Assembly: GCA_030529185.1 (NCBI GenBank)
Contig: JAUMXI010000005.1
Location: forward strand, 38,886-76,738
Source of the DNA: Flavobacteriaceae bacterium
Lineage (GTDB): Bacteria; Bacteroidota; Bacteroidia; Flavobacteriales; Weeksellaceae
DNA: 37,853 bases
Direction of reading: 5' to 3'
A program made the position numbers and the translations under genes. This document shows, one piece after another, positions 614 through 37,728 of the stretch (its first letter is position 1; every line of letters starts with the position of its first letter). The notes under the pieces are model-generated. The model saw only the letters and a list, made by a program, of their open reading frames with translations, had not been told where the DNA came from and did no database searches.

Positions 614-3600
614 TTACTTTATCATCAATTTTGCAGATTGTTTTCCTCCGTTGTTATCCACAAGATTTAGAATATAAATTCCTTTCGGATATTGGGTTAA
701 ATCCAAGTCTGCTTTATTACCTTGATAATCTTTCTTGAAAATCAATTTACCAGCCATATCATACACTTCTGCTTTCAAGGAAGAGATTCCTATTTTAGCT
801 TCTACAACGAATAAGCCATTCGATGGATTTGGATAAACCCTTACGATATTTGAAGTATATAGAGATGACACATCCACGGTCACTGTTCTTTTATCAGATT
901 TCACACCATCGCTATACACGGCATATACATCGTAAGTATAAATTCCGTTCTGCTTAATTTTTTCGGTATATGATGTGTTATCAGCTCCTTCAATACTCTT
1001 CGTTGTGCTTCCATTTTTGGCAATTTCATAGCCCACCAATTTAGGATAATCCGTCACGCCCAAGTTTTGTATTGGTGCTTTTACCGCCTGTTTTTGTTTT
1101 ACTTTTGATAAAGATTTTACAATTCCAGAGGTCTTATTATTTGTTTTTTCAGAAGTATCCGAATTTTGAGTTGGGGTATTCACATATCCTACACTGATAT
1201 CATCTATTCCCAATAAGAATCCCTCGTCTTCCTTTTGAGTTCTGTGATGGAAGGCTACAAAGAAATCTTTTGAGGTAATGTTTTTAATGTTTATCTCTCT
1301 CACAAAGAAATTAGAATCTAAGACATCTCCTTCAAAAGAATATACTTTATGTCCTTTTTTAATTTCCTCTACCGTTGGCACTTTTCCAGATTCTGGAGCC
1401 TCCACGACATAAACATCATAACGCTCCTTAAACTGGTGTTTTACAGCATATTTAAGCAACTCTGCACCTTTTTTCAATTTAGGCGTAACCAACCAATCAT
1501 CAGCAGTGAAGCTATCATTGAGCCAAGAGTAAGAAATTGCTCCGAACTCGCCTTTGTATTTACTCACATCACCGATTTCCCAAACAGAGCCGTCATTATT
1601 TGCATCATAGGAAGTCATATCCGAAGGGATTTCTCCTTGCTCAAAACTTTCGTAGTAATGAGGCTGTAGATTTGGACGCTCCCAAGTCATTTTCAGTTCT
1701 CCTATTTTATCATCAAAGTTGGCTTTGAGATTTTTAACTGGTTCATGCAAACCCGAAACTTTTACAATATCTTTTTTAACGGCAATGTCTTCATTATGAA
1801 GTGATTTCACTTTTAAAGACACGGTATAAACCCCGAATTTATTGAATTTCACGGAAATATTTTCAGAAGTAGCATTCCCTTCAACGAACTCAAATCGGTT
1901 GTTATCCGATGGTGTAATCGTCCATTCATACTCATTCGGCACTGGGTTTCCTTCAGAATAATTGGTGAATTCTATCACTTCTCCTTCTAAGATATCATCA
2001 TTAGATTCTCTAAATACAGCCTTTGCTTGTAAATTAGCTATATTAACAGATTCTGGTCTATTAATGATATCATAGTTTTTCTCTTCATCGGTTACTTTGA
2101 GCTGTACGCTGTACTGCCCTTCTTCATTAAATTTCACCTTTGGAGCAGACGAAGTATTTGAAGTTCCATCTACGAAAGACACCGTATTTGGTGTAAAAGT
2201 CCATTCGTAAGAAAGCTTGGAGTTTGCTATACCTGCAGTCGCATTGCTTTCAAAAGTAATAGGCTCGTAAGTGTTAGAAAAATCTTTGGCTGTAAAATCA
2301 GCTATTGGCATTTTGGCATTTCTTACACTAAAATCATCTACTGCAATTGCGTAAGATTCTCCTTCGGTTTTATTGTGGAAACCGATGTATGTGATTTGGT
2401 CCTTAGGAACGGAAAAATCAAAAAACACTTTTTTATAAGAGCCATCGCTTGGTGCTTCTATCTTTTCTCCAATTTTATTGAGCATTGCAGTACTAATAGG
2501 CTCATCGCCGTAGAATAGCTCTATACTTTCGTCTATATTATCAAACTTTGAAATACTCAATGCTACTCTATAGGTTGTCCCTCCTTTTAATTTTAATGGA
2601 TTGGAGAACAACCAGTCGTTGCTGTTTTGATTTCCTTTCGGGAAATTAACGGCAAAGCTTCTTCCAGAGAGGGATAATTCGGAGCTATCGTATTTTCTCC
2701 AAGTTTTCCCATCGCCATCTACATCTTCTGAAGTCCAACCGTTTTTAATGAAACTTTCCTCAAATCCAAAGCCGTATTTAGCATTTCCTTGTGAAAGATC
2801 TGCCATATAGCCGTAGATGTTTATTTCTTCCTTATTGTTTTCAGCCACCTCATCTCCTGGGAATTCTATGGTAGCGATAAGTTTAAAATCAACGAAAGAT
2901 TGGCTCAAATCCAAATTAATTTCTTTCTTTAAAACAGAATGTGGCTCTACTCTGTCAATCTCAATTTCTCCTTTGCTCACCTCTCTGTTGTTATCAACAT
3001 CTAATAGTTGGTATTTCAGTTTCCCTCCCAAAGCAGGGATAGATTCTTTATTTTCTATTTGAAATTCAATAGGAGTTTGGGTAGTATATTGGGATTCTGG
3101 TACTTTAACGGAAATTTTCTTTAAACTCAAATCTTTAACATTCCCCACACTAATCCCCGTAGCAATGAGAGAGTAATCTTGGCTTTCCGCTGGGAGCAAT
3201 TCCACTACATTTTCTCCTTCGCTATTAAGGCTAATGCTGTTTTTCATCAAATCATCTTTATGGCTAATGATGATTTCATAAGTTGACCCAGCCTCTGGAT
3301 TTGGAATTACAATTTGCTCTACATTATCTACCACATTATCACCTTTTGTAGCAGGAGCTGATGGTCTGGAAGGATCTAATTTCCAAGGGAAAAATTCTTG
3401 ACCGTTATGTCTTACTCGCACATCCAAGTCATTCACCAATACTTTTGTAGGTGCGTCATTTACATTTTGATCTGGTAAAACTTTAGCCACTGGGTCTGCC
3501 CATACAACCGTCACGATAAGCGGTTCTGTTCCTGTAGCCGTCACATTTATAGTTTCTGTAGCTCTATTGTTGAGTTTATTTTCTGAGATTAGAGCGTGTT

Positions 3601-4990
3601 TGTTCTCCGCAGAGATGGTGACCGCCGCTTTATGAGCGTTGAGTAATCCCCAACCTGACTTATAATCTGGTCCTGGGTGGTCTCCTGCTTCATTAGCAGT
3701 ATGAATAGCTAAGGCTTTAAGAGTTGCCGCACGCATAAACTTCCCTTGATGTAAGTTTTTATAATGCTCTTGAAGCAATAACAACGCACCACTTACATTT
3801 GGTGATGCCATAGAAGTTCCACTAATGCTAGCATAGGCTCTATCACTATCCGAATATGAGGACAATATATCAAATCCTACCCCAGAAATATCGGGTTTTA
3901 TTCTACCATCATCAACGGGTCCAAAGGCACTAAAACTCGCCATTACCACATCTTCTGGTTTTTTATACCCGCCTTCTATTTTATGAGCAGCACCTACTAC
4001 CAATATGTTTTTTCCTAATGCTCCGTGATTGATACAATCATAACCTTCTGCTCCACCATTTTTATCTCGAACTTTAGTAGATTCTCTCCATATCAACTGA
4101 TCGTTTTCTTTCACTCTTACGAAATGTCTTTCTCCAGGTTCTGGGCCATCACCTCTTGGGTTTCCTGCTGCCTTTACCTGCAAATACATAGGAGCATTGA
4201 GAGCTATTAGGTCATAATTTCTATCAATCTCGGTGTATTTTCCGTAGAATTTATATTCCGTATCTTCATCTTCTCCTATCCAGTGCCAACCTTCATTTCC
4301 TGAATAATCTCCGTAATCAAAACCTCCATTAAATCCATAAGAGTGATTTGAAACTAAAGCCCCCTCAGATGCTGCTTGTGTCATTTCTTGCTCATCATCA
4401 TTCCAGTCATATGTATCCAAGGTAGCTTTTGGAGCCATACCTTTTGCTTCAGGCACCACACCAGAGGCAATCATTGTTCCTGCCACATGGGTAGCGTGAT
4501 CGCTTTCCGCAAATGGAATATCTTTTTGAATTGCCCTTCCTCCAAATTCTTGGTGAGTGGTTCTGGTTCCACCGCCGTCCCATTCGTGGATTTTCATTTG
4601 AGAGCCTTCCAAGTTAAACACTCCAAAATCAGTTCCTAATTTATCCGTAGAAGTTCCAGCAGCCGCACCTGCATTGGTGGTGATATAGTACAATGCTCTC
4701 CCCTTTTTGTCAAACCCTTTCAATTGGAAATATTTGTTTTTTGATTTCCCAGCAAAAGGGATTTGGCGTTGTTTAGCAATTTTTTGCAATTGAGGGGTGC
4801 TGAGTGTAGTTTTTCTAAATCCCTCCTTCAATATTTCTAACGCACTTAGATTGCTCTCTCTTCTGATTGCTTGTACCTCCTGCTTGGTTTGAGCAAATAG
4901 AAATGTAGGCATCATCATAAAACCTGCTGCAATAGATAACTTCCCATTAACGCTAGGAAAGTCTCCACTAAAAATAGATTTGTCTATCAT
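614..4990 (-). CDS. Secreted S8 (subtilisin-family) protease with PKD, cleaved-adhesin-like and T9SS C-terminal domains
   Basis: This 1458-residue exported endopeptidase keeps the S8 catalytic triad: Asp138 (EWDGG), His165 (DHATHVAGT) and Ser393 (SGTSMASP), with oxyanion Asn277 (AAGNPRG). A hydrophobic signal segment ends near FAQ (residues 31-34). A pro-region follows to about 130, the protease domain to about 455, and a beta-sandwich of P-domain type to about 610. Then come a CARDB-like domain (615-725), a cleaved-adhesin-like jelly roll (730-890), two PKD-like domains (895-985, 990-1080), a second jelly roll (1110-1270), an FN3-like segment, and a Por_Secre_tail (VYPNPSNG at 1385 to the end). 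The tail predicts export by the type IX system with surface anchoring or release. It is a paralogue of the next gene upstream but has its own promoter and terminator. Odd point: about 16 polar residues precede the signal core. Substrate is unknown; a nutritional or virulence role is inference. Confidence 0.92.
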   Translation of the reverse strand: MIDKSIFSGDFPSVNGKLSIAAGFMMMPTFLFAQTKQEVQAIRRESNLSALEILKEGFRKTTLSTPQLQKIAKQRQIPFAGKSKNKYFQLKGFDKKGRALYYITTNAGAAAGTSTDKLGTDFGVFNLEGSQMKIHEWDGGGTRTTHQEFGGRAIQKDIPFAESDHATHVAGTMIASGVVPEAKGMAPKATLDTYDWNDDEQEMTQAASEGALVSNHSYGFNGGFDYGDYSGNEGWHWIGEDEDTEYKFYGKYTEIDRNYDLIALNAPMYLQVKAAGNPRGDGPEPGERHFVRVKENDQLIWRESTKVRDKNGGAEGYDCINHGALGKNILVVGAAHKIEGGYKKPEDVVMASFSAFGPVDDGRIKPDISGVGFDILSSYSDSDRAYASISGTSMASPNVSGALLLLQEHYKNLHQGKFMRAATLKALAIHTANEAGDHPGPDYKSGWGLLNAHKAAVTISAENKHALISENKLNNRATETINVTATGTEPLIVTVVWADPVAKVLPDQNVNDAPTKVLVNDLDVRVRHNGQEFFPWKLDPSRPSAPATKGDNVVDNVEQIVIPNPEAGSTYEIIISHKDDLMKNSISLNSEGENVVELLPAESQDYSLIATGISVGNVKDLSLKKISVKVPESQYTTQTPIEFQIENKESIPALGGKLKYQLLDVDNNREVSKGEIEIDRVEPHSVLKKEINLDLSQSFVDFKLIATIEFPGDEVAENNKEEINIYGYMADLSQGNAKYGFGFEESFIKNGWTSEDVDGDGKTWRKYDSSELSLSGRSFAVNFPKGNQNSNDWLFSNPLKLKGGTTYRVALSISKFDNIDESIELFYGDEPISTAMLNKIGEKIEAPSDGSYKKVFFDFSVPKDQITYIGFHNKTEGESYAIAVDDFSVRNAKMPIADFTAKDFSNTYEPITFESNATAGIANSKLSYEWTFTPNTVSFVDGTSNTSSAPKVKFNEEGQYSVQLKVTDEEKNYDIINRPESVNIANLQAKAVFRESNDDILEGEVIEFTNYSEGNPVPNEYEWTITPSDNNRFEFVEGNATSENISVKFNKFGVYTVSLKVKSLHNEDIAVKKDIVKVSGLHEPVKNLKANFDDKIGELKMTWERPNLQPHYYESFEQGEIPSDMTSYDANNDGSVWEIGDVSKYKGEFGAISYSWLNDSFTADDWLVTPKLKKGAELLKYAVKHQFKERYDVYVVEAPESGKVPTVEEIKKGHKVYSFEGDVLDSNFFVREINIKNITSKDFFVAFHHRTQKEDEGFLLGIDDISVGYVNTPTQNSDTSEKTNNKTSGIVKSLSKVKQKQAVKAPIQNLGVTDYPKLVGYEIAKNGSTTKSIEGADNTSYTEKIKQNGIYTYDVYAVYSDGVKSDKRTVTVDVSSLYTSNIVRVYPNPSNGLFVVEAKIGISSLKAEVYDMAGKLIFKKDYQGNKADLDLTQYPKGIYILNLVDNNGGKQSAKLMIK

Positions 4991-5122: not shown

Positions 5123-8100
5123 TTATCTAACCATCAATTTAGTGGATTGCTTAGCTCCTTTATTATCTGTTAAACTAAGAATATAAATTCCTTTTGGATG
5201 CTGAGTTATATCTATATCAGCTATATTTCCTTGATAATCTTTCTTAAAGATTAACTTACCTGTAGCGTCATACACCTCTACAGCAAGTGAAGTTGTTCCA
5301 ACTTTTGCCTCTACCTTAAACAAACCGTTTGATGGATTTGGATAAACCCTCGCTTCGTTTTCAAGATTAGCAATATGCTCTGCTCTCACCTTAATTGTCA
5401 AAGGTTCTGATTTTCCACCATCGCTATAGACTGCATACACATCATAAGGATGAACTCCCGCTCTCTTTACAGTTCCTTGATAAGTTTTTTCTGAAATATC
5501 AGAAGTTGTTTTCAAGCTTCTATCGTATTTTGCTACCTCATAGCCTGTAAGCCTTGGGGCATTCACTTTCGGAACCTGCACACCATCTTCAGCACTATTG
5601 TTCATCAATCTATTTTTAAATATAGGGTGAATTCCCTTTCCTTCCTCTGCATCTTTAAGCATCTTTCTACCCTGTGCCGTCATTTTATTAGCCGATAGAT
5701 TTATTTTCTCTGTATCAGCTTTAAAGCCGAGGGATATATCATCTATCAACAACCAAGTGATCACATTACTCGGAGCTTCTGATGCATCTTCTTTAGTGGT
5801 TTTGTGGTGTATTGCGATATAATATTCCGTGTCCTTATATTCGTTCATATCCACTACTAAATTCTTGTACTCTTCACCTGTTTTTTCTACGATTTCCCTC
5901 AAGATAATTCCGTTTCTCGCCTCTTCTATAGTTGGTTTTTCTCCTGCCACGCTGGTTGCCGGAATAAGCACAACATTAAAACGCTCTTTTCCAACGCTAC
6001 GATACCAAAAATCAAGCACTTCGGCACCCTTTCCTACTTTTCCTGTAATGAGCCAACCGCTTACATCTACTCTTTTTTGAGACGCTGCATAAGCACATCT
6101 TCTACCTGAGTGAATGAAATCTCGGATTGATAATACTTCCCATGCCCAAGGGTTTCTTCCATCGTTAAGAATGGTAAAATCAGACGGCATATCTCTTCTA
6201 CTTCCTTCAAAGCCCTCGAAATAGATTGGGAGCAAATCAGGTCTATTCCAACCTATTTTCACTTCGTTTTTATCCTTATCAAAGTCTCCTTGTCCGTTTT
6301 TCACAGGAAGATAAACAGGCTTCACATCTATGAAATTTGGAATCTTCTCTCCTGCACCAATATAAGGAGAAACGGATATCAATTCAACGGTATAAGAACC
6401 TGGCTCTTTAAATTTGACATAGGCTACTTTTGAATTTTGATTTGTTCCATCAACAAATTCAACCGTATTTGGTTCAAACGACCATTTTCTTCTATCTGGC
6501 ATCGGATTTCCTTTACTCTCGTCCGTGAATTTTATCACTTCTCCTTGATAGATTTGCGTTCTACTCGCTACCATATCAGCATAAACAGGAGCGTTTTCCA
6601 CGACTACCTCTCTACGCCTTGTGAATGTATTTTCTCCTGCCGTATTGGTTGCTTTCAAAGTAATATCATATACTTTTTGCTCTTTAAAAATCACTTTCGG
6701 ACTTTCAGAATTCCTATTTGTATTGTCTTCAAAAGTGACGGTATCTGGAGTAAAAGACCATTCGTAAGCCACACTTTCACCATTAGGAACAATCGTTTCG
6801 TTTTTTAGCTCCACAACTTCAAAACTATTTGGATCCTTCTTGCTAATGTAAAAATCTGGGGCTACTTTTCCACCGATATGATGAACACTAAAATCATCTA
6901 TCATTATAGAATAAGATTGATTTTCCGTTCTATGATGAAAACCGATATAGTGTAGCCCATCTTGAGGAGCCGTAAATTCATATACATGACGCTCGTATTG
7001 AGGTCCTACTTTTTCTATGTTAATAGTTGCCAACTCGGTAGCCATCGCTGTTGATGAAGCGGTGTTTCCTACAAATACCTTAAGTTTTTCTTCTACCTCT
7101 GCACCTAATTTACTTGCGTGAAACACAAGCCTATACTTAGCACCTTGTTTTAATTTTAGAGGGTTAGAAAACAGCCAATCATTGGTTTCCTGCCCTCCAG
7201 AAGTAGAGATTGCAAAAGCACTTCCCGACCGTGAAAACTCAGGTTCTTCAAGGATATTCCAAGTATTTTTATCGGCATTAACATTTTCAACAGACCAGCC
7301 TCTTTCGGTTAAATCTCCATCAAAGCCCCAAGTATGATGACTTCCCATTTTCGTTAAATCCGAAACAATCCCATAAACAGAAGCTCCTATTTTATTATTT
7401 CCTTCTACACTATCTCCCTCATAAACCACCTCTGCCACGATACTATAACCAACGAATGCCTTTGCAAGGTCAAAAGTAATGCTTTGGGTATGAGTTCCGT
7501 TAGCGGGAATTTCATTCAAAACAATTTCGCCCTTATTGGTTTCTGTATTATTTTCTGAATTGACAAGTTTGTATTTCAATTTTGCTCCTGTAATAGCTGT
7601 ATCCGAAAGGTTTTTCACCTTTACCTCCACAGCAGTAGCATTAGAAAACGATAGGGCTTCTGGCACCTTGATTTCTTCTACCGCCAAATCGGTAATAACC
7701 CCTTGATTAACTCCCGTTGCGATTAATGAAAAGGCTTGGTTATCGGCATTGATTAAAGTATGTCCTCCTACAGGATTGGTTTTAAGTTGATTTTTATGAC
7801 TTATTTTTACCTTGTAAGCTCTTCCTTTTACGGGGTTTTTAATCTCCACTTGCTCTACATTATCACGGAAGTTATCTCCTTTGGTTGCTGGATTTAATGG
7901 ATTTTTAGGGTCAAGAATCCAAGCAAGATGCTCTTCATTAGTTTGAGTATCTATTATTTTAATATCCAAATCATTTACCAAAGTCGCCGTTTCATTATCC
8001 AAGATATATTCTGGCAATGCCTCCATAACGGGGTCGTCCCAAGAGATGGTTACTTTCAAAGGTTCTTGCCCAGAAGCCGTCACCAAAATCTCTTTGGTTT

Positions 8101-9529
8101 CTCCATTATTTAAAACTTCTTCATTTATCAAAGAATATTTATCTTTTACAGATAAAGTTTGAACTGCTTTTAGGGTATTCATTAGCCCCCAACCGTTTTT
8201 ATAATCGGGTCCATCAGCCTCTCCCGCCTCACTTGCTGTATGAATTGCCAAACCTTTCAAAGTAGCAGATTTCATAAATGGAGTATCATCAGTTCCATAC
8301 ATTTTTTTATACTGCTCTTGCAAAAGCCCAAGTGAAGCTGTAACTCCAGGTGCCGCCATAGAAGTTCCGCTCAATTCTGTATATTTATTATTTCCTTGTC
8401 CTGATGTTGAATAGATATCAAATCCTATTCCCATAATATCGGGCTTTATTCGTCCATCATCGGTTGGGCCGAAACAACTAAATACGGTAGGTTTTACATC
8501 AGAAGGTTGTTGATAAGCATTAGGAATTTTATGAGCAGCCCCTACTACCAATATATTTTTCCCAGTGGTTCCTTGCACTATGGTATCAAAGCCGTGTTCC
8601 CCACCATTTTTCTGTCTTTGCTTTATAGAACGCTCCCAAACTTCTTTGCCATCTTTTATTTTCCTAACATAGTGCATTGCTCTTCTCCCTGTTCCTGGTC
8701 CTCCTCCTCTGGAATTTCCTGCAGCCCGTACTGGCAAATAATAAGGTGCTTTTGAAGAAATATAATCCCACTGAGCATCTATCGCATCATAATATCCATA
8801 ACCTATATACTCTAAATCTTCATCTTCTCCAAACCAATGCCAACCGTCATTTCCACTATAATTTCCCATTTCAAAACCTCCGTGAGCCCCATAGGAGTGA
8901 TTAGAAACCAAAGCCCCATCAATCGCAGCTGTTATCATTTCTTGAACATCTTCTGTCCATTCATATGCTTTTAAATTTGCTTTTGGTGCCATTCCTATGG
9001 CTTTTCCATTAACGCCAGAGGCTACCATTGTACCTGCCACATGGGTAGAATGGTCTTCATATAAACCTTCCTCAACATGCTCTTTATCCCCTTGCGTTAC
9101 TCTGCCTCCAAACTCTGTGTGTCCTGTTCTAACAGCACCACCGTCCCATTCGTGTAGGGTAATACCCTCTCCATCTAAATCAAAAACACCACTTGAAGAA
9201 TTAACCTTATTGGTAGAAATCCCCTTTGAGCCACCAGCATTATAAGTAATGTAGTACAGAGGTTTTCCTGTTTTCTTGTCAAAACCCTGCAACTGGTAGA
9301 TTCTACCCTCATACTCTCCTCTAAAAGGAACATTTCTTTTCTCCGCCTCCATTTTAAGCACAGATAAAGACATCTTCTCCTTTCGAGATTTCTTCTTAAT
9401 TGCTTCAAGCCCTTTCACATCTGTTTTCTTTTGCATCGCCAAAATATCTTTTTCACTTTGAGCGAATGCCACCGTAGCAAATAGATAACATATTGCTACT
9501 GGAATTTTAATTAGTCGTTGTGTATGCAT
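5123..9529 (-). CDS. Secreted S8 (subtilisin-family) protease with PKD, cleaved-adhesin-like and T9SS C-terminal domains (paralogue)
   Basis: This 1468-residue protein has the same domain order as its downstream neighbour. A clean Sec signal peptide (MHTQRLIKIPVAICYLF to AFA|Q, about 23 residues) precedes the pro-region. The triad is Asp129 (EWDGG), His160 (DHSTHVAGT) and Ser390 (SGTSMAAP), with oxyanion Asn272 (AAGNSRG). A P-domain-like beta-sandwich (about 470-605), a CARDB-like region, jelly rolls (about 730-885 and 1100-1270) and two PKD-like repeats (about 890-985 and 985-1075) follow. It ends with a T9SS tail (VYPNPSNG to KLMVR). The tail and the protease core are strikingly similar to those of the 614-4990 protein, while the middle region has drifted. 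That indicates an old tandem duplication with both copies still apparently active. It probably acts at the cell surface or outside the cell. Substrates cannot be read from the sequence. Confidence 0.92.
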   Translation of the reverse strand: MHTQRLIKIPVAICYLFATVAFAQSEKDILAMQKKTDVKGLEAIKKKSRKEKMSLSVLKMEAEKRNVPFRGEYEGRIYQLQGFDKKTGKPLYYITYNAGGSKGISTNKVNSSSGVFDLDGEGITLHEWDGGAVRTGHTEFGGRVTQGDKEHVEEGLYEDHSTHVAGTMVASGVNGKAIGMAPKANLKAYEWTEDVQEMITAAIDGALVSNHSYGAHGGFEMGNYSGNDGWHWFGEDEDLEYIGYGYYDAIDAQWDYISSKAPYYLPVRAAGNSRGGGPGTGRRAMHYVRKIKDGKEVWERSIKQRQKNGGEHGFDTIVQGTTGKNILVVGAAHKIPNAYQQPSDVKPTVFSCFGPTDDGRIKPDIMGIGFDIYSTSGQGNNKYTELSGTSMAAPGVTASLGLLQEQYKKMYGTDDTPFMKSATLKGLAIHTASEAGEADGPDYKNGWGLMNTLKAVQTLSVKDKYSLINEEVLNNGETKEILVTASGQEPLKVTISWDDPVMEALPEYILDNETATLVNDLDIKIIDTQTNEEHLAWILDPKNPLNPATKGDNFRDNVEQVEIKNPVKGRAYKVKISHKNQLKTNPVGGHTLINADNQAFSLIATGVNQGVITDLAVEEIKVPEALSFSNATAVEVKVKNLSDTAITGAKLKYKLVNSENNTETNKGEIVLNEIPANGTHTQSITFDLAKAFVGYSIVAEVVYEGDSVEGNNKIGASVYGIVSDLTKMGSHHTWGFDGDLTERGWSVENVNADKNTWNILEEPEFSRSGSAFAISTSGGQETNDWLFSNPLKLKQGAKYRLVFHASKLGAEVEEKLKVFVGNTASSTAMATELATINIEKVGPQYERHVYEFTAPQDGLHYIGFHHRTENQSYSIMIDDFSVHHIGGKVAPDFYISKKDPNSFEVVELKNETIVPNGESVAYEWSFTPDTVTFEDNTNRNSESPKVIFKEQKVYDITLKATNTAGENTFTRRREVVVENAPVYADMVASRTQIYQGEVIKFTDESKGNPMPDRRKWSFEPNTVEFVDGTNQNSKVAYVKFKEPGSYTVELISVSPYIGAGEKIPNFIDVKPVYLPVKNGQGDFDKDKNEVKIGWNRPDLLPIYFEGFEGSRRDMPSDFTILNDGRNPWAWEVLSIRDFIHSGRRCAYAASQKRVDVSGWLITGKVGKGAEVLDFWYRSVGKERFNVVLIPATSVAGEKPTIEEARNGIILREIVEKTGEEYKNLVVDMNEYKDTEYYIAIHHKTTKEDASEAPSNVITWLLIDDISLGFKADTEKINLSANKMTAQGRKMLKDAEEGKGIHPIFKNRLMNNSAEDGVQVPKVNAPRLTGYEVAKYDRSLKTTSDISEKTYQGTVKRAGVHPYDVYAVYSDGGKSEPLTIKVRAEHIANLENEARVYPNPSNGLFKVEAKVGTTSLAVEVYDATGKLIFKKDYQGNIADIDITQHPKGIYILSLTDNKGAKQSTKLMVR

Positions 9530-28192: not shown

Positions 28193-28223
28193 CAAAGATA
28201 ATACTTTTAGTTCATATCTTCAA
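28193..28223 (-). promoter_or_regulatory. Candidate internal promoter for the DUF3467 gene
   Basis: On the minus strand TATCTTTG (28193-28200) lies 20 bases after a TTG (28221-28223) at the very end of rpoC. A second box, TAGATTTG, is at 28173-28180. The leader to the ATG at 28122 would be about 65 bases and includes a short imperfect hairpin (about 28171-28190). Confidence 0.45.
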
Positions 28224-31200
28224 ACTCTTTGTTTGAGCCTACCACTACATTTTGATAAACTTTCAGACCTGTACCCGCTGGTATTCTGTGCCCTACGATT
28301 ACATTTTCCTTCAATCCGTTGAGTTCATCTACCTTACCAGATACCGCTGCTTCATTCAATACTTTTGTAGTTTCTTGGAATGATGCTGCAGACATAAAGG
28401 ACTTGGTTTGAAGAGCCGCTCTTGTAATCCCCTGAAGAACAGGATTTGCTGTAGCCGTAAGTGCTTCTCTCACTTGAACCAACTGCAAGTCTTCACGCTT
28501 CAACTTAGAGTTTTCATCTCTCAATTCTCTTGCCGTAATCATCTGCCCCGCTTTCAATTCCTTGGAATCTCCTGGGTCGGTCACTACTTTCAATCCGAAT
28601 ACTCTGTTGTTTTCCTCGATGAAATCTTGCTTGTGCTCCAACGAACCTTCCAAGAATTGCGTATCTCCACCATCTACAATTTCTACTTTGGTCATCATCT
28701 GGCGAACGATAATTTCAAAATGTTTGTCATCAATTTTTACCCCTTGAAGACGATATACATCTTGAATTTCATTCACGATATATTCCTGAACTGCCGTAGG
28801 TCCTTTGATTGCCAAAATATCATCTGGCGTAATAGAACCATCGGAAAGTGGCATACCTGCTCTCACGAAGTCATTTTCCTGAACGATGATTTGGCTGGAA
28901 AGTTTTACCAAATACTTTCTGATTTCCCCAGTTTTAGACTCTACTATCAATTCGCGGTTTCCTCTCTTGATTTTTCCGTAAGATACTACCCCGTCTATCT
29001 CCGTCACTACCGCTGGGTTAGAAGGATTTCTCGCTTCAAACAATTCCGTCACCCTTGGAAGACCTCCCGTGATATCCCCTGCTTTCGCAGATTTTCTTGG
29101 GATTTTAATCAAGATTTTACCAGCCTTAATTTTCTCTCCATCATTAACCATCAAGTGAGCTCCCACAGGCAAGTTGTAAGCCTTCTGCTCTACACCTTTG
29201 GAATCTACTACCCTCAATGTAGGAACCGCTTTTTTATTTCTTGATTCAGAGATTACTTTCTCTTCAAATCCTGTTTGTTCGTCAATTTCCAACTGGAATG
29301 ACACCCCTTGAATAATATCCTCATACTCTACCTTACCAGCAGTTTCGGCGATGATAACGGCGTTATATGGGTCCCATTTACAGATAGTATCTCCTTTTTG
29401 AACTTTATCACCAGGTTTTACAGAAAGAATAGCACCATAAGGAATATTGGCTGTCATAATTTGAGTTCTCGCCTCGTTATCTGCCACCAAACGGAATTCC
29501 GTAGAACGCGAAACCACGATTTCTGCTTTATTTCCGTTTTCATCTTCGGAAGTAATGGTTCTTACTTCGTCCATTTCCACGATACCATCTCTTCTTGCCA
29601 CGATGGAAGGATTTACAGAGACATTCCCTGCTGTACCCCCTTGGTGGAAGGTTCTCAATGTCAACTGAGTACCAGGTTCCCCGATGGACTGAGCAGCGAT
29701 AACTCCCACTGCTTCCCCCATATGAATCATCTTACCAGTTGCCAAGTTTCTTCCGTAACACTTCGCACAAATACCTTTTTTAGCCTCACAAGAAAGTGGC
29801 GAACGCACCTCTATCATTTCTAAACCAGCATCTTCCAATTTCTTCGCTAAAACCTCATCAATGATTTGGTCTGCTTCTACCAATAATTCATCGGTTTCTG
29901 GATTGTAAATATTGTGAAGAGAAACTCTACCCAAAATTCTTTGAGAAATAGGCTCTACGATTTCATCGTTTTTCTTCAATGCAGAAACTTCTACCCCTCT
30001 CAATGTGCCACAATCATCTTCTGTAATGATAACATCTTGTGCCACATCTACCAATCTTCTGGTCAAATAACCCGCATCGGCAGTTTTAAGAGCCGTATCC
30101 GCAAGACCTTTTCTCGCTCCGTGAGTAGAGATAAAGTATTCCAAGATAGAAAGCCCTTCCTTAAAGTTTGCAACAATCGGGTTTTCAATAATTTCCGCAC
30201 CAGTAGAACCTGCTTTTTGAGGTTTTGCCATCAAACCACGCATACCAGAGAGCTGACGAATCTGTTCCTTAGACCCTCTCGCACCAGAATCCAACATCAT
30301 ATACACAGAGTTGAAGCCACCTTGGTCGGTTTTCATTCTGTTCATAATCATTTCGGTAAGACTGGCGTTAGTATTCGTCCAAACATCAATCACTTGGTTA
30401 TAACGCTCTGTATCCGTAATCAACCCCATATTATAGTTGGCTTTGATTTCATCAACCGTTTCCACCGCTTGGGCAATCATTTGGATTTTCTCTTCTGGAA
30501 TTACAATATCCGCCAAACTAAACGAAAGACCTCCTTGGAAGGCGTTTTTATACCCCAAGTTCTTCATTTCGTCAAGGAACTTCACCGTAGTTGGGAAGTC
30601 TGTTTCGGCTAAAATAGTTCCGATAACATCTCTCAAAGATTTTTTCGTTAATAATGTATTGACATAACCTACTTGCTTCGGCACAATTTGGTTGAATAAA
30701 ATTCTACCTACCGTAGTATCAATGAGTTTCGTTACTAATTCTCCGTTTTCTTTCACGGCAAGACGACATTTTACTTTTGCATTAAGAGATGCTTTCCCTT
30801 CTGCGTAAGCAATTTCTGCCTCTTCTGGCGAATAAAATACCAAACCTTCTCCTTTCACTTTATGGTCTTCCGTAGAGTGGGCTTCTTTCGTCATAAAATA
30901 AAGCCCCAAAACCATGTCCTGAGAAGGAACTGTAATTGGCGAACCATTCGCAGGGTTCAAGATGTTTTGCGAACCGAGCATCAACAATTGAGCTTCCAAA
31001 ATGGCTTCTGGTCCTAATGGTAAATGCACCGCCATCTGGTCACCGTCAAAGTCCGCGTTGAATGCCGTAGTCACCAATGGGTGAAGTCTAATCGCTTTAC
31101 CCTCAATCATTTTTGGTTGGAATGCTTGGATACCCAAACGGTGAAGTGTAGGTGCCCTGTTCAATAGCACTGGGTGCCCTTTCATCACATTTTCCAAAAT

Positions 31201-32472
31201 ATCATAAACTACTGGCTCTTTTCTATCAATAATTCTCTTGGCAGATTTTACGGTTTTTACAATACCTCTTTCAATCAATTTTCTGATAATGAATGGCTTG
31301 TAAAGTTCCGCCGCCATATCTTTCGGGATACCACACTCGTGAAGTTGCAAGTCTGGACCAACAACAATTACCGAACGCGCAGAGTAATCCACCCTTTTAC
31401 CAAGCAAGTTTTGACGGAAACGCCCTTGCTTTCCTTTCAATGAATCTGAAAGGGATTTCAATGGTCTGTTGGATTCCGATTTTACCGCCGAAGATTTTCT
31501 CGTATTATCAAATAAAGAATCTACCGCCTCTTGAAGCATACGCTTTTCGTTTCTCAAAATCACCTCTGGTGCTTTGATTTCCAAAAGACGCTTCAAACGG
31601 TTGTTTCTGATAATCACCCTTCTATAAAGGTCGTTCAAATCCGAAGTAGCGAAACGCCCACCATCAAGCGGAACCAATGGTCTTAATTCTGGTGGCGTCA
31701 CAGGAAGTACACGCATTACCATCCACTCTGGGCGGTTAATCATTCTCGTGTTTGCTCCTCTCAAGGCTTCCACTACGGAGAGTCTTTTTAATGCCTCGGT
31801 TCGTCTTTGTTTAGAAGTTTCATTGTGAGCCTTGTGTCTTAAATCATAAGAAAGAGCATCAAGGTCTATTCTCTTCAATAAATCTTCCACTGCTTCTGCT
31901 CCCATTTTCGCGATGAATTTATTTGGGTCAGAATCATCAAGATATTGATTTTCTACTGGAAGCGTATCCAAAACATCAAGGTATTCTTCTTCTGTAAGGA
32001 ATTCCATTTCTTCAAAATCAGAACCATCGGCTTTTTTCGCAATTCCTTGTTGGATAACGACATACCTCTCGTAGTAGATAATCATATCCAACTTCTTGGA
32101 AGGCAAACCTAAAAGATAACCGATTTTGTTTGGTAAAGAACGGAAATACCAAATATGAGCCACTGGCACCACCAAATTAATATGCCCAATGCGGTCTCTT
32201 CTTACTTTTTTCTCCGTCACTTCTACCCCACAACGATCGCAGACAATCCCTTTATAGCGGATTCTCTTATATTTGCCACAAGCACATTCATAATCCTTCA
32301 CAGGACCGAAAATTTTCTCGCAAAACAAACCATCTCTTTCTGGTTTATGCGTTCTATAATTGATGGTTTCTGGCTTTAGAACCTCTCCTCTTGATTCTTG
32401 AAGGATAGATTCTGGTGAAGCTAAACCAATCGTGATTTTACTAAATCTACTTGTTTTATTTTTATTTGACAT
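28207..32472 (-). CDS. rpoC: DNA-directed RNA polymerase subunit beta'
   Basis: A 1421-residue catalytic subunit of RNA polymerase. The N-terminal zinc ribbon (CACGKYKR...VCDRCGVEV), the active-site loop [16 protein letters not shown] that binds catalytic Mg, and the second zinc site ([17 protein letters not shown]) are all present. So are the trigger-loop/bridge-helix region ([22 protein letters not shown]) and the C-terminal [16 protein letters not shown]...[10 protein letters not shown]. It is intact. Unusually, it is not directly behind rpoB: two genes for secreted proteins intervene, and no TAnnTTTG promoter was found in the gap just before the ATG at 32472. Confidence 0.98.
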
Positions 32473-32511
32473 ATCTTGTGTTTATAGATATTTTTGTTTA
32501 ATGTATAATGT

Positions 32512-33147
32512 TTATTGTGTTCTATCTTCAGCTGCCACGAAGGCTTTCTTAATGAAAAGAACATCAATCTCTGATCGTGCTTCTACCCTTTCAATATCAC
32601 CTATTATTTTCCAAGTACCAGCAGATTTTAATCTAAAACCTAATCTGGTATCTTTTCTTAGAATATCCACAATATGATTTGCAGTTGAATTGCTTGTAAA
32701 TTTAAACATCCAGCCAGAGATGATCGCTTCCCATTTGTCTACAGACATACCTGTATCAAAACCTGCCTGCGTTTTAGTCTGAGCATTTGTAACCGTGTAT
32801 CTTTTCACAACAAACATTGATGTAGAATCATCCTCTGCGTTGAAGCCCGCAATTGTATTATTTGGAAGCAAATCTTTCTCATCATTTATTACCCCCAAGA
32901 CTCCATTTGCGTCTGTCACAACTATTTTTGTGCTATTGTAAGCCCCCGTTTTAGTAGCAGACGAGGTGTCTGGTCCTGTGGTATAGATGGTGTTTGTGCT
33001 TCCATTTTCGGGCAACTCTCTTACCCTAAGAGTTCCTTTTATATCTAAATTCTCCGTTGGGGTAGCAGTGTTAATTCCTACATTTCCCTGTTGTGCTGTG
33101 ATAGTAATCATCGTTAATGTCAATACTATACCTAAAATACTTCTCAT
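32512..33147 (-). CDS. Secreted protein of unknown function, second insert between rpoB and rpoC
   Basis: A 211-residue protein with a short signal peptide (MRSILGIVLTLTMITITAQ). The mature part starts with NVGINTATPTENLDIKGTLRVRELP (split motif at 23-46), the VGI(N)T..P...LD..G..R.R pattern seen at the start of many Bacteroidota extracellular and tail-fibre-like proteins. A linker rich in Ser/Thr follows, then KIVVTDANGVLGV and MSVDKW (134-139) with IISGWM. The C-terminal segment is GTWKIIGDIERVE...IDVLFIKKAFV. It is clearly paralogous to the neighbour at 33170-33829. There is no T9SS tail. The gaps are 22 bases before and 39 bases after, all on the rpoB/rpoC strand. No function can be assigned. 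Confidence 0.8.
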   Translation of the reverse strand: MRSILGIVLTLTMITITAQQGNVGINTATPTENLDIKGTLRVRELPENGSTNTIYTTGPDTSSATKTGAYNSTKIVVTDANGVLGVINDEKDLLPNNTIAGFNAEDDSTSMFVVKRYTVTNAQTKTQAGFDTGMSVDKWEAIISGWMFKFTSNSTANHIVDILRKDTRLGFRLKSAGTWKIIGDIERVEARSEIDVLFIKKAFVAAEDRTQ

Positions 33148-33169
33148 TATGGTTATTGTTTTTTGATTG

Positions 33170-33829
33170 TTAATTTACATTTTTAAAACTTACAAATTTT
33201 CTTTTGATGAATAGAATGTCTATAAATTGCTTTTCTTGAATAGTAGCAATATCCCCCTTCAATCTCCATTTGGTACCATCATTAAATAATTGGAAACCGA
33301 ATTCATCAGCTCTTCCAAGCTTACCAAACACCCCAGCAGGAGAGGAGTTCCGTTGAGTATTGGTAGACTCCATCATCCAACCTGTAAGGAGGGCTTGCCA
33401 TTTATCAACCGACATCTCCGTATCAAAACCTTTTCTTCCTCCTTGTCCGCTTGGCCAGTCGGAAACCTCATATCTTTTGATGACCATAATGGCGGACGAG
33501 TTATCCGATGTATCTTTAGATTTAAAAGGCTCAGCTACAACTTCAGCAAAAGATTTTGTACCTATCACACCCATATCATTACTCACTAATACATTTAAAG
33601 GTGTGTATTTTTCTGAGGCTTGAGCAGAGGGGTTTCCTGAGGAAGCCTTAGACGCTCCTTTTACAGGTAACTTTCTCACTCTTATAGTCCCATTTACATC
33701 TAAAATTTCTGTTGGAGTTTGAGTCTTCACTCCTACTTTTCCTACTTTTTCTACTTTTTCTTGTCCAAAAAGCAGATCTGTTCCTCCTCCGAACAAAATA
33801 GATAAAATTAACAATTTGGTGATTCTCAT
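33170..33829 (-). CDS. Secreted protein of unknown function, first insert between rpoB and rpoC
   Basis: A 219-residue protein with a signal peptide (MRITKLLILSILFGGGTDLLFGQ). VGVKTQTPTEILDVNG and TIRVRKLP occupy residues 32-55. A Ser/Ala/Pro-rich linker leads to PLNVLVSNDMGVIG, then MSVDKW (139-144) with LLTGWM, and the end KWRLKGDIATI...IDILFIKRKFV. It shares this whole layout with the gene at 32512-33147, so the pair arose by tandem duplication. The start at 33829 is chosen over 33874 because it begins a proper signal peptide; the longer form would overlap the hairpin at 33852-33876. It lies 71 bases after rpoB. Function unknown; extracytoplasmic location is predicted. Confidence 0.8.
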   Translation of the reverse strand: MRITKLLILSILFGGGTDLLFGQEKVEKVGKVGVKTQTPTEILDVNGTIRVRKLPVKGASKASSGNPSAQASEKYTPLNVLVSNDMGVIGTKSFAEVVAEPFKSKDTSDNSSAIMVIKRYEVSDWPSGQGGRKGFDTEMSVDKWQALLTGWMMESTNTQRNSSPAGVFGKLGRADEFGFQLFNDGTKWRLKGDIATIQEKQFIDILFIKRKFVSFKNVN

Positions 33830-33851
33830 AATAATTAAAAGTTTTATTTCA

Positions 33852-33876
33852 CTTTGGGAGCTGATGACTCCCAAAG
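33852..33876 (-). promoter_or_regulatory. Perfect hairpin between rpoB and the first insert gene
   Basis: CTTTGGGAG (33852-33860) and CTCCCAAAG (33868-33876) form a 9-bp perfect stem with a 7-base loop. On the minus strand no T run follows, so it is not a standard intrinsic terminator. It could protect the rpoB 3' end, mark a processing site or lower downstream expression. Confidence 0.6.
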
Positions 33877-33900
33877 CTCTTGTTTGTGTTATTTTAGATA

Positions 33901-36900
33901 TTACTCTTCAAGTCTTACATCAAGTCCAAGCCCTTGCAACTCGTGAAGCAATACATTGAAGGACTCTGGAATGCCTGGTTCTGGCATCGCTTCGCCTTTT
34001 GCAATTGCTTCGTAAGTTTTCGCTCTACCTACCACATCATCGGACTTCACTGTTAAGATTTCTCGCAAGATATTTGATGCACCGAATGCCTCCAATGCCC
34101 AAACCTCCATCTCTCCGAAACGCTGACCACCAAACTGAGCTTTACCACCGAGTGGCTGTTGCGTAATCAATGAATAAGGTCCGATAGAACGCGCGTGCAT
34201 CTTATCATCAACCATATGTCCTAATTTCAACATATAGATGACCCCAACAGTTGCAGGTTGAGTAAATCTCTCGCCTGTTCCTCCATCATATAGGTAAGTA
34301 TTTCCATATTTCGGAAGCCCTGCTTGGTCTGTGTATTCCGTAATTTGTTCCAAACTTGCTCCATCAAAGATAGGCGTTGCAAATTTCACTCCTAACTTCT
34401 TACCAGCCCAACCAAGAACTGTTTCGTAAATCTGACCGATGTTCATACGCGAAGGTACCCCAAGTGGGTTCAACACGATATCCACTGGCGTTCCATCTTC
34501 CAAGAATGGCATATCCTCTTCACGAACGATTTTAGATACAATACCTTTGTTTCCGTGACGACCCGCCATTTTATCCCCAACATTCAATTTACGCTTCTTC
34601 GCGATATAGACTTTTGCTAATTTAATGATACCCGTAGGAAGCTCATCACCGACAGAGATTGCAAATTCTTCGCGGTTTTTCACTCCTTGAAGTTCATTAT
34701 ATTTAATTTTGTAATTATGAATTAATTTGTTAATCAATTCATTACTTTCTTCCTCAGAAACCCAATTGGTACCATTTACATTTTTATAATCTTCAACACT
34801 GGTTAATAACCTCATTGTAAATTTCACTCCTTTCCCGATGATTTCTTCTCCCAAATCATTGGTAACACCTTGCGAAGTTTTTCCACTTACAATAGTATTA
34901 AGTTTTTCTAACAATGTGCCTCTTAGTTGGTCAAACTGTTTTTGGAATTTGTTGGCTACTGCCTCCAATTTAAGTTTGTCCTCGCTTCTTCTCTTTCTGT
35001 CTTTAATATTTCGTGAGAAGAGTTTTTTATCAATTACCACCCCTCTTAATGACGAGTCAGCCTTTAATGATGCATCTTTCACATCACCTGCTTTATCTCC
35101 AAAGATGGCTCTCAATAATTTTTCTTCTGGCGTTGGGTCAGACTCCCCTTTTGGCGTGATTTTACCAATCATAATATCGCCAGGTTTCACCTCTGCCCCA
35201 ATTCTAATCATACCGTTTTCATCAAGGTCTTTTGTAGCCTCTTCGGAAACATTCGGAATATCTGAAGTCAATTCCTCCATACCCAATTTGGTATCACGAA
35301 CTTCCAAGGAATATTCATCTACATGGATAGAAGTGAACCAGTCTTCGCGAACTACTTTTTCGTTGATTACGATCGCGTCCTCAAAGTTGTATCCTTGCCA
35401 AGGCATAAACGCCACCACCAAGTTTCTACCTAATGCCAACTCTCCGTTTTCGGTAGCATAACCATCGCAAAGCACCTGACCTTTTTCTACTCTATCCCCT
35501 ACTCTTACATTTGGTTTCAAAGTAATGGTAGTAGATTGGTTGGTTTTTCTAAACTTCGTAAGGTGGTAAGTTTTTGTAGCAGATTCAAATGAAACTAAAT
35601 CTTCATTTTCTGTTCTATCATATTTAATGGTGATTTTATCTGCATCTACATATTCTACCTCTCCGTTTCCTTCGGCATTAATCAAAATTCTGGAATCTTT
35701 TGCTACTTGTCTCTCCAATCCTGTTCCTACAATTGGAGCCTCAGGCTTAATCAATGGAACTGCCTGACGCATCATGTTAGACCCCATCAATGCACGGTTC
35801 GCATCATCGTGTTCCAAGAAAGGAATAAGCGATGCCGAAATACCAGAAATCTGGTTCGGTGCAATATCAATCAAATGAACTTCATCTGGTTCTACTACTG
35901 GATAATCCCCATCAAGACGAGCAATCACTCTATTCGTAGCGAAAGTTCCATCATCATTAAGCTCCACATTCGCCTGAGCGATTACCTTCGCTTCTTCATC
36001 TTCTGCATTAAGGTAAATTGGTTTCGCAGAGAAATCTACTTTACCATTTTCTACCTTTCTATAAGGCGTTTCAATGAAACCTAAATTGTTGATTTTCGCA
36101 TAGCATCCAAGAGATGAAATCAAACCGATGTTTGGTCCTTCCGGAGTTTCAATCGGACAAATTCTTCCGTAGTGCGTATGGTGAACATCTCGCACCTCAA
36201 ATCCCGCTCTCTCTCTTGACAAACCACCAGGCCCTAATGCAGATAATCTACGCTTGTGCGTAACTTCTGACAGCGGATTGGTTTGGTCCATAAACTGAGA
36301 AAGTTGGTTGGTTCCAAAGAATGAATTTACCACCGATGTTAATGTCTTAGCATTCACCAAATCAAGCGGTGTAAATATCTCATTATCACGAACATTCATT
36401 CTTTCCTTAATGGTTCTGGCAATTCTTGAAAGCCCAACGCCGAACTGACCTGCCAATTGCTCTCCAACCGTTTTAATTCTTCTGTTAGAAAGGTGGTCAA
36501 TATCATCTACTTCTGCCTTAGAGTTAGCCAATTCTATTAAGTGGCGAACAATCGCAATGATATCCTCCTTCGTTAAAACTTCTGTTTCAACAGGGATATT
36601 CAAACCTAATTTTTTATTTAATCTATAACGCCCTACTTCGCCCAAAGAGTATCTTTGTTCGGAGAAGAATAATTTTTCAATGATTCCTCTTGCTGTTTCC
36701 TCATCTGGCGGGTCTGCGTTTCTCAACTGGCGATAGATATACTCCACCGCCTCTTTTTCAGAGTTGGTAGGGTCTTTTTGCAATGTATTCTGAATGATAG
36801 AGAATTCACTACTATTTTCGTTGTGTAGCAAGATAGTTTTAACACCAGAATCCAAAATCAACTCCAAGTGTTCTTTCTCTAAAATTGTTTCTCTATCAAG

Positions 36901-37728
36901 GATGATTTCATTTCTTTCAATAGAAACCACCTCTCCTGTATCTTCATCTACGAAATCCTCAAACCAAGTATTCAAAACTCTCGCCGCCAAAGTTCTTCCT
37001 TCTGCTTTTTTCAAAGCCGCTTTGGAAACTTTCACTTCTTCAGCAAGGTCAAAGATTTGAAGAATATCTTTATCAGATTCATATCCGATAGCTCTCAATA
37101 AGGTTGTGAATGGTAATTTCTTCTTACGGTCAATATAAGCATACATCACATTATTAATATCCGTAGTAAATTCCATCCAAGACCCTTTGAAAGGAATAAT
37201 TCTTGAATAATACAATTTCGTTCCGTTAGCGTGGTAAGTTTGCCCAAAGAACACCCCTGGCGAACGGTGCAATTGAGTTACCACAACTCGTTCTGCTCCA
37301 TTAATGATGAACGAACCGCTCGGCGTCATATAAGGCACTGGACCTAAATACACATCTTGAATTACGGTTTCAAAATCTTCGTGCTCTGGGTCCGTACAAT
37401 ATAACTTCAATCTCGCTTTTAGTGGAACGCTATAAGTAAGCCCTCTCTCAACGCATTCATCAATAGAATAACGAGGAGAATCTACCATATAATCTAAAAA
37501 TTCCAACACAAACTGATTTCGCGAGTCTGTAATTGGGAAATTTTCTTGAAAAGTCTTATAAAGACCTTCTTTCACTCGGTTCTCAGGCAAAGTATCCATC
37601 TGGAAAAACTCCTTGAATGATTCCACTTGAATATCCAAGAAATCTGGCACTTCTACATTCCCTTTCGCAGAAGAGAAGTCAATCCTTTGGTTTCCCTGAG
37701 GGTTTTTCGTCGTTTTTGATTTACTCAT
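33901..37728 (-). CDS. rpoB: DNA-directed RNA polymerase subunit beta
   Basis: A 1275-residue subunit forming much of the RNA polymerase active-site cleft and the rifampicin pocket. Signatures seen: [92 protein letters not shown] (rifampicin-resistance-determining region, wild-type-like), [31 protein letters not shown] and [24 protein letters not shown]. Length and ends are normal for Bacteroidota. The partner gene rpoC is 1428 bases away instead of adjacent. The rpoB promoter is probably further upstream, outside the window, with rplL. Confidence 0.98.

Follow-up and report, generated by a model that had tools for sequence, protein, structure and literature searches.

Recurrent gene insertion between rpoB and rpoC within one family of Bacteroidota

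In the genome analyzed here (G000), rpoB and rpoC are separated by two paralogous genes, A and B, that are predicted to encode exported proteins, and ten further species of the same family carry other genes, of six kinds, at this junction. The adjacency of rpoB and rpoC is a textbook case of a constrained operon, and it is assumed both in annotation and in the use of phylogenetic markers. A literature search covering papers available without subscription turned up no earlier description of genes in this position; what is new is that insertion recurs at this junction within one family. Our preferred explanation, to which we assign a probability of roughly 0.7, is that the A/B pair represents a tolerated, co-transcribed insertion and belongs to a series of insertions at this junction, no fewer than seven or eight of them independent, as part of a relaxation that affects the rpo region across the family.

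The whole stretch of DNA analyzed (hereafter, the window) comprises 37,853 nucleotides and contains the following features around the insertion:

33901 to 37728, minus strand: rpoB, 1,275 aa, the 5' flank of the insertion; the contig ends 125 bp beyond the rpoB start
33852 to 33876, minus strand: inverted repeat (post-rpoB hairpin) with a perfect 9-bp match and an 11-bp stem with G-U closing pairs, 24 bases past the rpoB stop
33170 to 33829, minus strand: gene A, 219 aa from ATG, with an N-terminal signal, the MAT-type capping-loop motif VGVKTQTPTEIL, and a beta-rich C-terminal domain
32512 to 33147, minus strand: gene B, 211 aa, a paralogue of A, with the motif VGINTATPTENL
28207 to 32472, minus strand: rpoC, 1,421 aa, 39 bp 3' of gene B

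The original prediction held that two signal-peptide paralogues split rpoB and rpoC, with all four genes on one strand and gaps of 71, 22, and 39 bp, and both the coordinates and the 35% identity of A and B (across 191 aa; E = 5e-36) agree with it. An alternative start for gene A, a TTG at 33874, is possible and would add 15 residues. A and B are the sole genes of the 1,428-bp rpoB-rpoC interval, in which no recombinase, transposase, or integrase gene was found, and their composition (GC 0.38, GC3 0.30) does not set them apart from the remainder of the window (GC 0.37), so that nothing flags them as recently foreign. Relative to the canonical Bacteroidota rpoBC arrangement, gene order and strand are the same and a hairpin follows rpoB as in many relatives, whereas G000 has 1,428 bp and two extra genes where about 30 to 200 bp are usual. 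Elsewhere in the window, two adjacent genes on the minus strand (614 to 4990 and 5123 to 9529) encode large secreted proteins of ~1,460 aa each; both contain choice-of-anchor J domains, end in T9SS type A tails, and match subtilisin-type proteases weakly.

We surveyed the spacer in 270 species of the family of G000, using the rpoB C terminus and the rpoC N terminus as probes (the tally being 40, 6 fused matches, 79, 1 split, 2, 72, and 70); the genus of G000 is represented in this sample by one genome. For part of the family survey and for the phylum sample, spacers were read off listed coordinates rather than by script. Spacer length was ~30 to 200 bp in 258 of the 270 species, and the 12 exceptions were as follows:

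G000: spacer of 1,428 bp
G107: spacer of 1,388 bp
G379: spacer of 4,122 bp
G012: spacer of 980 bp
G122: spacer of 1,058 bp
G238: spacer of 1,224 bp
G257: spacer of 1,728 bp
G266: spacer of 1,724 bp
G287: spacer of 1,736 bp
G313: spacer of 1,728 bp
G342: spacer of 637 bp
G003: rpoB and rpoC on different contigs (L079 and L080)

Since some of these insertions are found in single-contig genomes of 4 to 5.6 Mb, insertion between rpoB and rpoC is not an assembly effect. In G003, rpoC is divergent from gyrA and rpoB is convergent with an aminotransferase gene; with rpoC standing apart from rpoB, it follows that rpoC can be expressed alone. Outside the family, a gene-sized spacer was found in none of 125 Bacteroidota (59 of the same order and 66 further), the largest spacers being 305 bp within the order (by script) and about 400 bp in G450; the difference between 12/270 and 0/125 (p = 0.01) is indicative only, as the species are related. 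A/B homologues were detected at the rpoB-rpoC junction in no other family genome (320 searched), and the A/B insertion is private to the G000 lineage. Most relatives therefore do not carry the same genes at this site, and the idea of a tolerated insertion in a constrained operon is supported. The interruption by A and B is real, of a rare type, and probably read through. The choice that had been posed between a conserved clade insertion and a single accident is incomplete: A/B are indeed private to G000, but the junction recurrently receives unrelated cargo in this family.

All of the linked insertions (11/11) are co-directional with rpoBC (p = 0.001, or 0.008 for 8 independent events), and their cargo can thus be expressed from the rpo promoter. 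The cargo is envelope-related or exported except for PhyH, which is not a surface protein. More specifically, G107 and G379 carry TMEM260/PMT_2-like polytopic proteins (30% identical to each other and under the Pfam cut-off), followed in G379 by further ORFs, one of which has a T9SS sorting tail. The insertion in G238 encodes a 400-aa polytopic protein and that in G342 a 204-aa protein with a lipobox, and a 516-aa polytopic membrane protein with homologous flanking spacer is shared by four species, where it probably stems from one insertion event. PADLOC returned no defence-gene match among six cargo proteins scanned.

The remaining cargo is a PhyH-family dioxygenase, present in G012 and G122 (68% identical), which belong to two genera. 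Of 320 family genomes, 122 have PhyH orthologues, which lie at rpoBC in G012 and G122 and at least tens of kilobases from rpoBC in the others for which both positions were available. The insertion in G122 is recent, because G097, which is ~96% identical to it in rpoB and rpoC, has an empty spacer of 89 bp. As G012 and G122 stay apart in both rpoB and rpoC trees and the G097 site is empty, the two PhyH insertions look independent. We rejected transfer of PhyH together with long rpoB/rpoC flanks, given that the trees split G012 from G122 and that identity between G122 and G097 does not drop beside the insert. Between these two genomes, a slight excess of differences was observed in the final 30 bases of rpoB; the rpoC-proximal end of the spacer is similar and the rpoB-proximal part has been replaced, with no clean target duplication. 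G000, by contrast, has no close relative with an empty site. Overall, the sequences point to no fewer than seven or eight separate insertion events at the rpoB-rpoC junction in this family.

Bacteroidetes promoters have as their consensus a -7 box, TAnnTTTG, and a -33 TTTG; they are weakly defined in Bacteroidota, and a consensus scan may have overlooked one that serves A or rpoC. A scan of positions 32440 to 34050 on the coding strand gave no exact match to the -7 box and no one-mismatch -7 box beside a perfect -33 TTTG, just as the original prediction had noted no promoter box between the inserts and rpoC. Sigma70-like sites numbered 9, against a shuffle mean of 4.7 (SD 1.9; both strands pooled), with a top score of at most 10 of 12, but sigma70 is the wrong promoter model for this phylum. 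The only terminator-like site in the interval is on the plus strand, opposite to the rpoBC coding strand, and the whole interval yielded no promoter or terminator that would isolate rpoC.

Folding of the post-rpoB hairpin, which the original prediction had overlooked, yielded -16.6 kcal/mol (z = -4.9). Two identifications were rejected: that of an intrinsic rpoB terminator, because the coding strand has no U-tract, and that of a mobile element or dispersed repeat, because the hairpin is single copy genome-wide and has no Rfam match. Among rpoB-rpoC spacers of insertion-free family members, 34/52 contained stem-loops with z < -2 (median z, -2.8). Because stem-loops are common in the spacers of these relatives, the hairpin, whose sequence is not conserved, is probably a resident element of the rpoB-rpoC spacer behind which A/B were inserted. 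Repeated TCTAAAA-type units are often present in the insertion-free spacer stem-loops (e.g., L167, L175, L201, and L209). These stem-loops of insertion-free relatives possibly have a role in message processing or stability.

We propose that the tandem A/B pair entered a dispensable rpoB-rpoC spacer, probably behind the resident hairpin, and that it would have been kept because it lies in the direction of transcription and has no terminator. By read-through, rpoB-A-B-rpoC would be transcribed as a single message, and the cargo would obtain growth-linked transcription off the rpo promoter, with no need for a promoter of its own. The co-directional bias would then be the expected trace of purifying selection against blocked transcription of rpoC. 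Regulatory coupling of A/B to RNA polymerase synthesis is plausible as a hypothesis.

It is possible, if on balance unlikely, that the insertion is a neutral accident, with A and B being of no consequence and rpoC being driven by its own, unrecognized promoter. Such an accident would accommodate the presence of A/B at rpoB-rpoC in a single genome, the lone rpoC beside gyrA in G003, and the free variation of spacer lengths and sequences; it is harder to reconcile with 11 of 11 linked insertions being co-directional and mostly carrying envelope or exported cargo, or with the missing promoter consensus ahead of rpoC.

As to the products of the inserted genes, the N-termini of A and B, judged by sequence, are basic and hydrophobic, as is typical of a Sec signal, and neither protein matched a family in Pfam or NCBIfam. 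Full-length relatives were found in 6 of 320 family genomes, i.e., G000 and 5 others. In the three of these five whose neighbourhoods were read, tandem A/B-like pairs lie away from rpoBC: in G027 the neighbours are kdsA and a transposase gene, in Chryseobacterium oleae the pair is flanked by uvrB and an AI-2E-type permease gene, and in G150 the setting is different again. The N-terminal part is common to many paralogues and carries the motif VG.[GNK]...P...L; the capping-loop motif VGx[GN]...P...L is exact in B, and A has K for G/N. In profile searches, this part matched structures of MAT fibres from Bdellovibrio (8ojn, E = 8e-4; 8ond, 8on4, and 8oml), a match carried by a short motif. MAT proteins form trimeric fibres with a capping-loop motif and exchangeable tips, and are kin to phage fibres (PMC10769870). 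A and B resemble these MAT/S74-type fibres in a putative capping-loop motif of the form V-G-x-G/N...P...L and in the beta-rich character of their C-terminal part; unlike them (PMC10769870), they are only ~215 aa long, with one motif, apparently no long beta-helix, and no S74 chaperone, and Pfam gave no match to the S74 chaperone domain in any of nine relatives. PHROGs matches were mostly to families of unknown function, and a few were to tail or virion proteins. A monomer structure model of B was poor (mean pLDDT 54), and Foldseek searches with it gave no significant match, phage needle and pyocin fibres being among the top rows; a fold assignment for B was dropped, as the model is too weak. 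A and B are probably exported, trimeric fibre- or adhesin-like proteins that may be located at the cell surface, which we offer as a lead and not as membership of a superfamily. Elsewhere in G000, C88 and C96 (L003 and L007) carry more tandem genes in which this N-terminal motif is joined to unrelated C-terminal parts, an arrangement that suggests fibre-tip shuffling.

Other junctions of the rpl-rpo region served as controls, in 71 stretches 5' of rpoB that included the 11 other exceptional species. Within rplK-rplA-rplJ-rplL, no interruption was found (0/33, 0/41, and 0/47 per junction; 0/121 in total). The nusG-rplK distance exceeded 1 kb in 3/25 stretches; it was 1.3 to 2.7 kb in L205 (G378), L233 (G379), and L186 (G026). 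The rplL-rpoB distance exceeded 1 kb in 24 of 51 measurable stretches and was intact (88 to 155 bp) in genera g8, g17, g22, g29, and g30; in 20 stretches, some of them short, rplL was not found in the DNA covered. Given that rplL-rpoB is interrupted far more often than rpoB-rpoC, the rpoB-rpoC insertions form the less frequent component of a general relaxation around rpoB that affects some members of the family. In many family genomes (L189, L190, L200, L207, L226, and others), up to >5 kb of mostly co-directional genes lie between rplL and rpoB, and many of the inserts in stretches of this type encode large secreted proteins.

Among rplL-rpoB ORFs, 94 were on the same strand as rpoB versus 19 on the opposite strand, and a crude hydropathy test assigned signal-like N-termini to 66 of the 94. 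These counts, together with rpoB-rpoC cargo that, PhyH aside, is envelope-related, would be expected if rpo junctions were selected as sites for strong, growth-rate-coupled expression of exported proteins. We consider such a selective benefit doubtful, because exported and envelope genes are abundant throughout these genomes and the cargo changes between species. A broader proposal, that rplL-rpoB and rpoB-rpoC are preferred expression sites for interchangeable envelope or secreted genes, whereby transcription would link surface composition to RNA polymerase synthesis, is speculative, and we think it improbable. An assembly or binning artefact in G000, which the original prediction had named as a way for its claim to fail, is very improbable: the assembly consists of 118 contigs, with 93% completeness and 3.3% contamination, and is thus fragmented, but the rpoB/A/B/rpoC junctions are internal to a 76.7-kb contig, reading frames are intact, base composition matches the remainder of the window, and similar arrangements occur in single-contig genomes.

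With a tolerated, co-transcribed insertion as the preferred reading, the closest precedent is the work of Brandis (2021; PMC8046335), which treats the same gene cluster in other phyla (Gammaproteobacteria and Bacilli), infers insertion followed by disconnection, and, in the passages considered, discusses insertions lying between operons or at rplL-rsmC. As in the cases described there, a few genes are inserted: the foreign DNA between cluster neighbours stays below 10 kb (1,428 bp in G000 and 637 to 4,122 bp in ten others, i.e., 11 species with insertions), and one relative, G003, has the pair disconnected, a split that fits the path from insertion to disconnection. The difference from the insertions discussed in PMC8046335 is that the break here falls within the rpoB-rpoC pair, recurs in one Bacteroidota family, and involves mainly envelope-related cargo.

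The repeated breaks, together with close relatives that have an empty site, constitute a natural experiment on the need for rpoB-rpoC adjacency, and they also inform how genes enter essential operons. In this family, a supposedly untouchable rpo operon is under remodelling, mostly by cell-surface genes.
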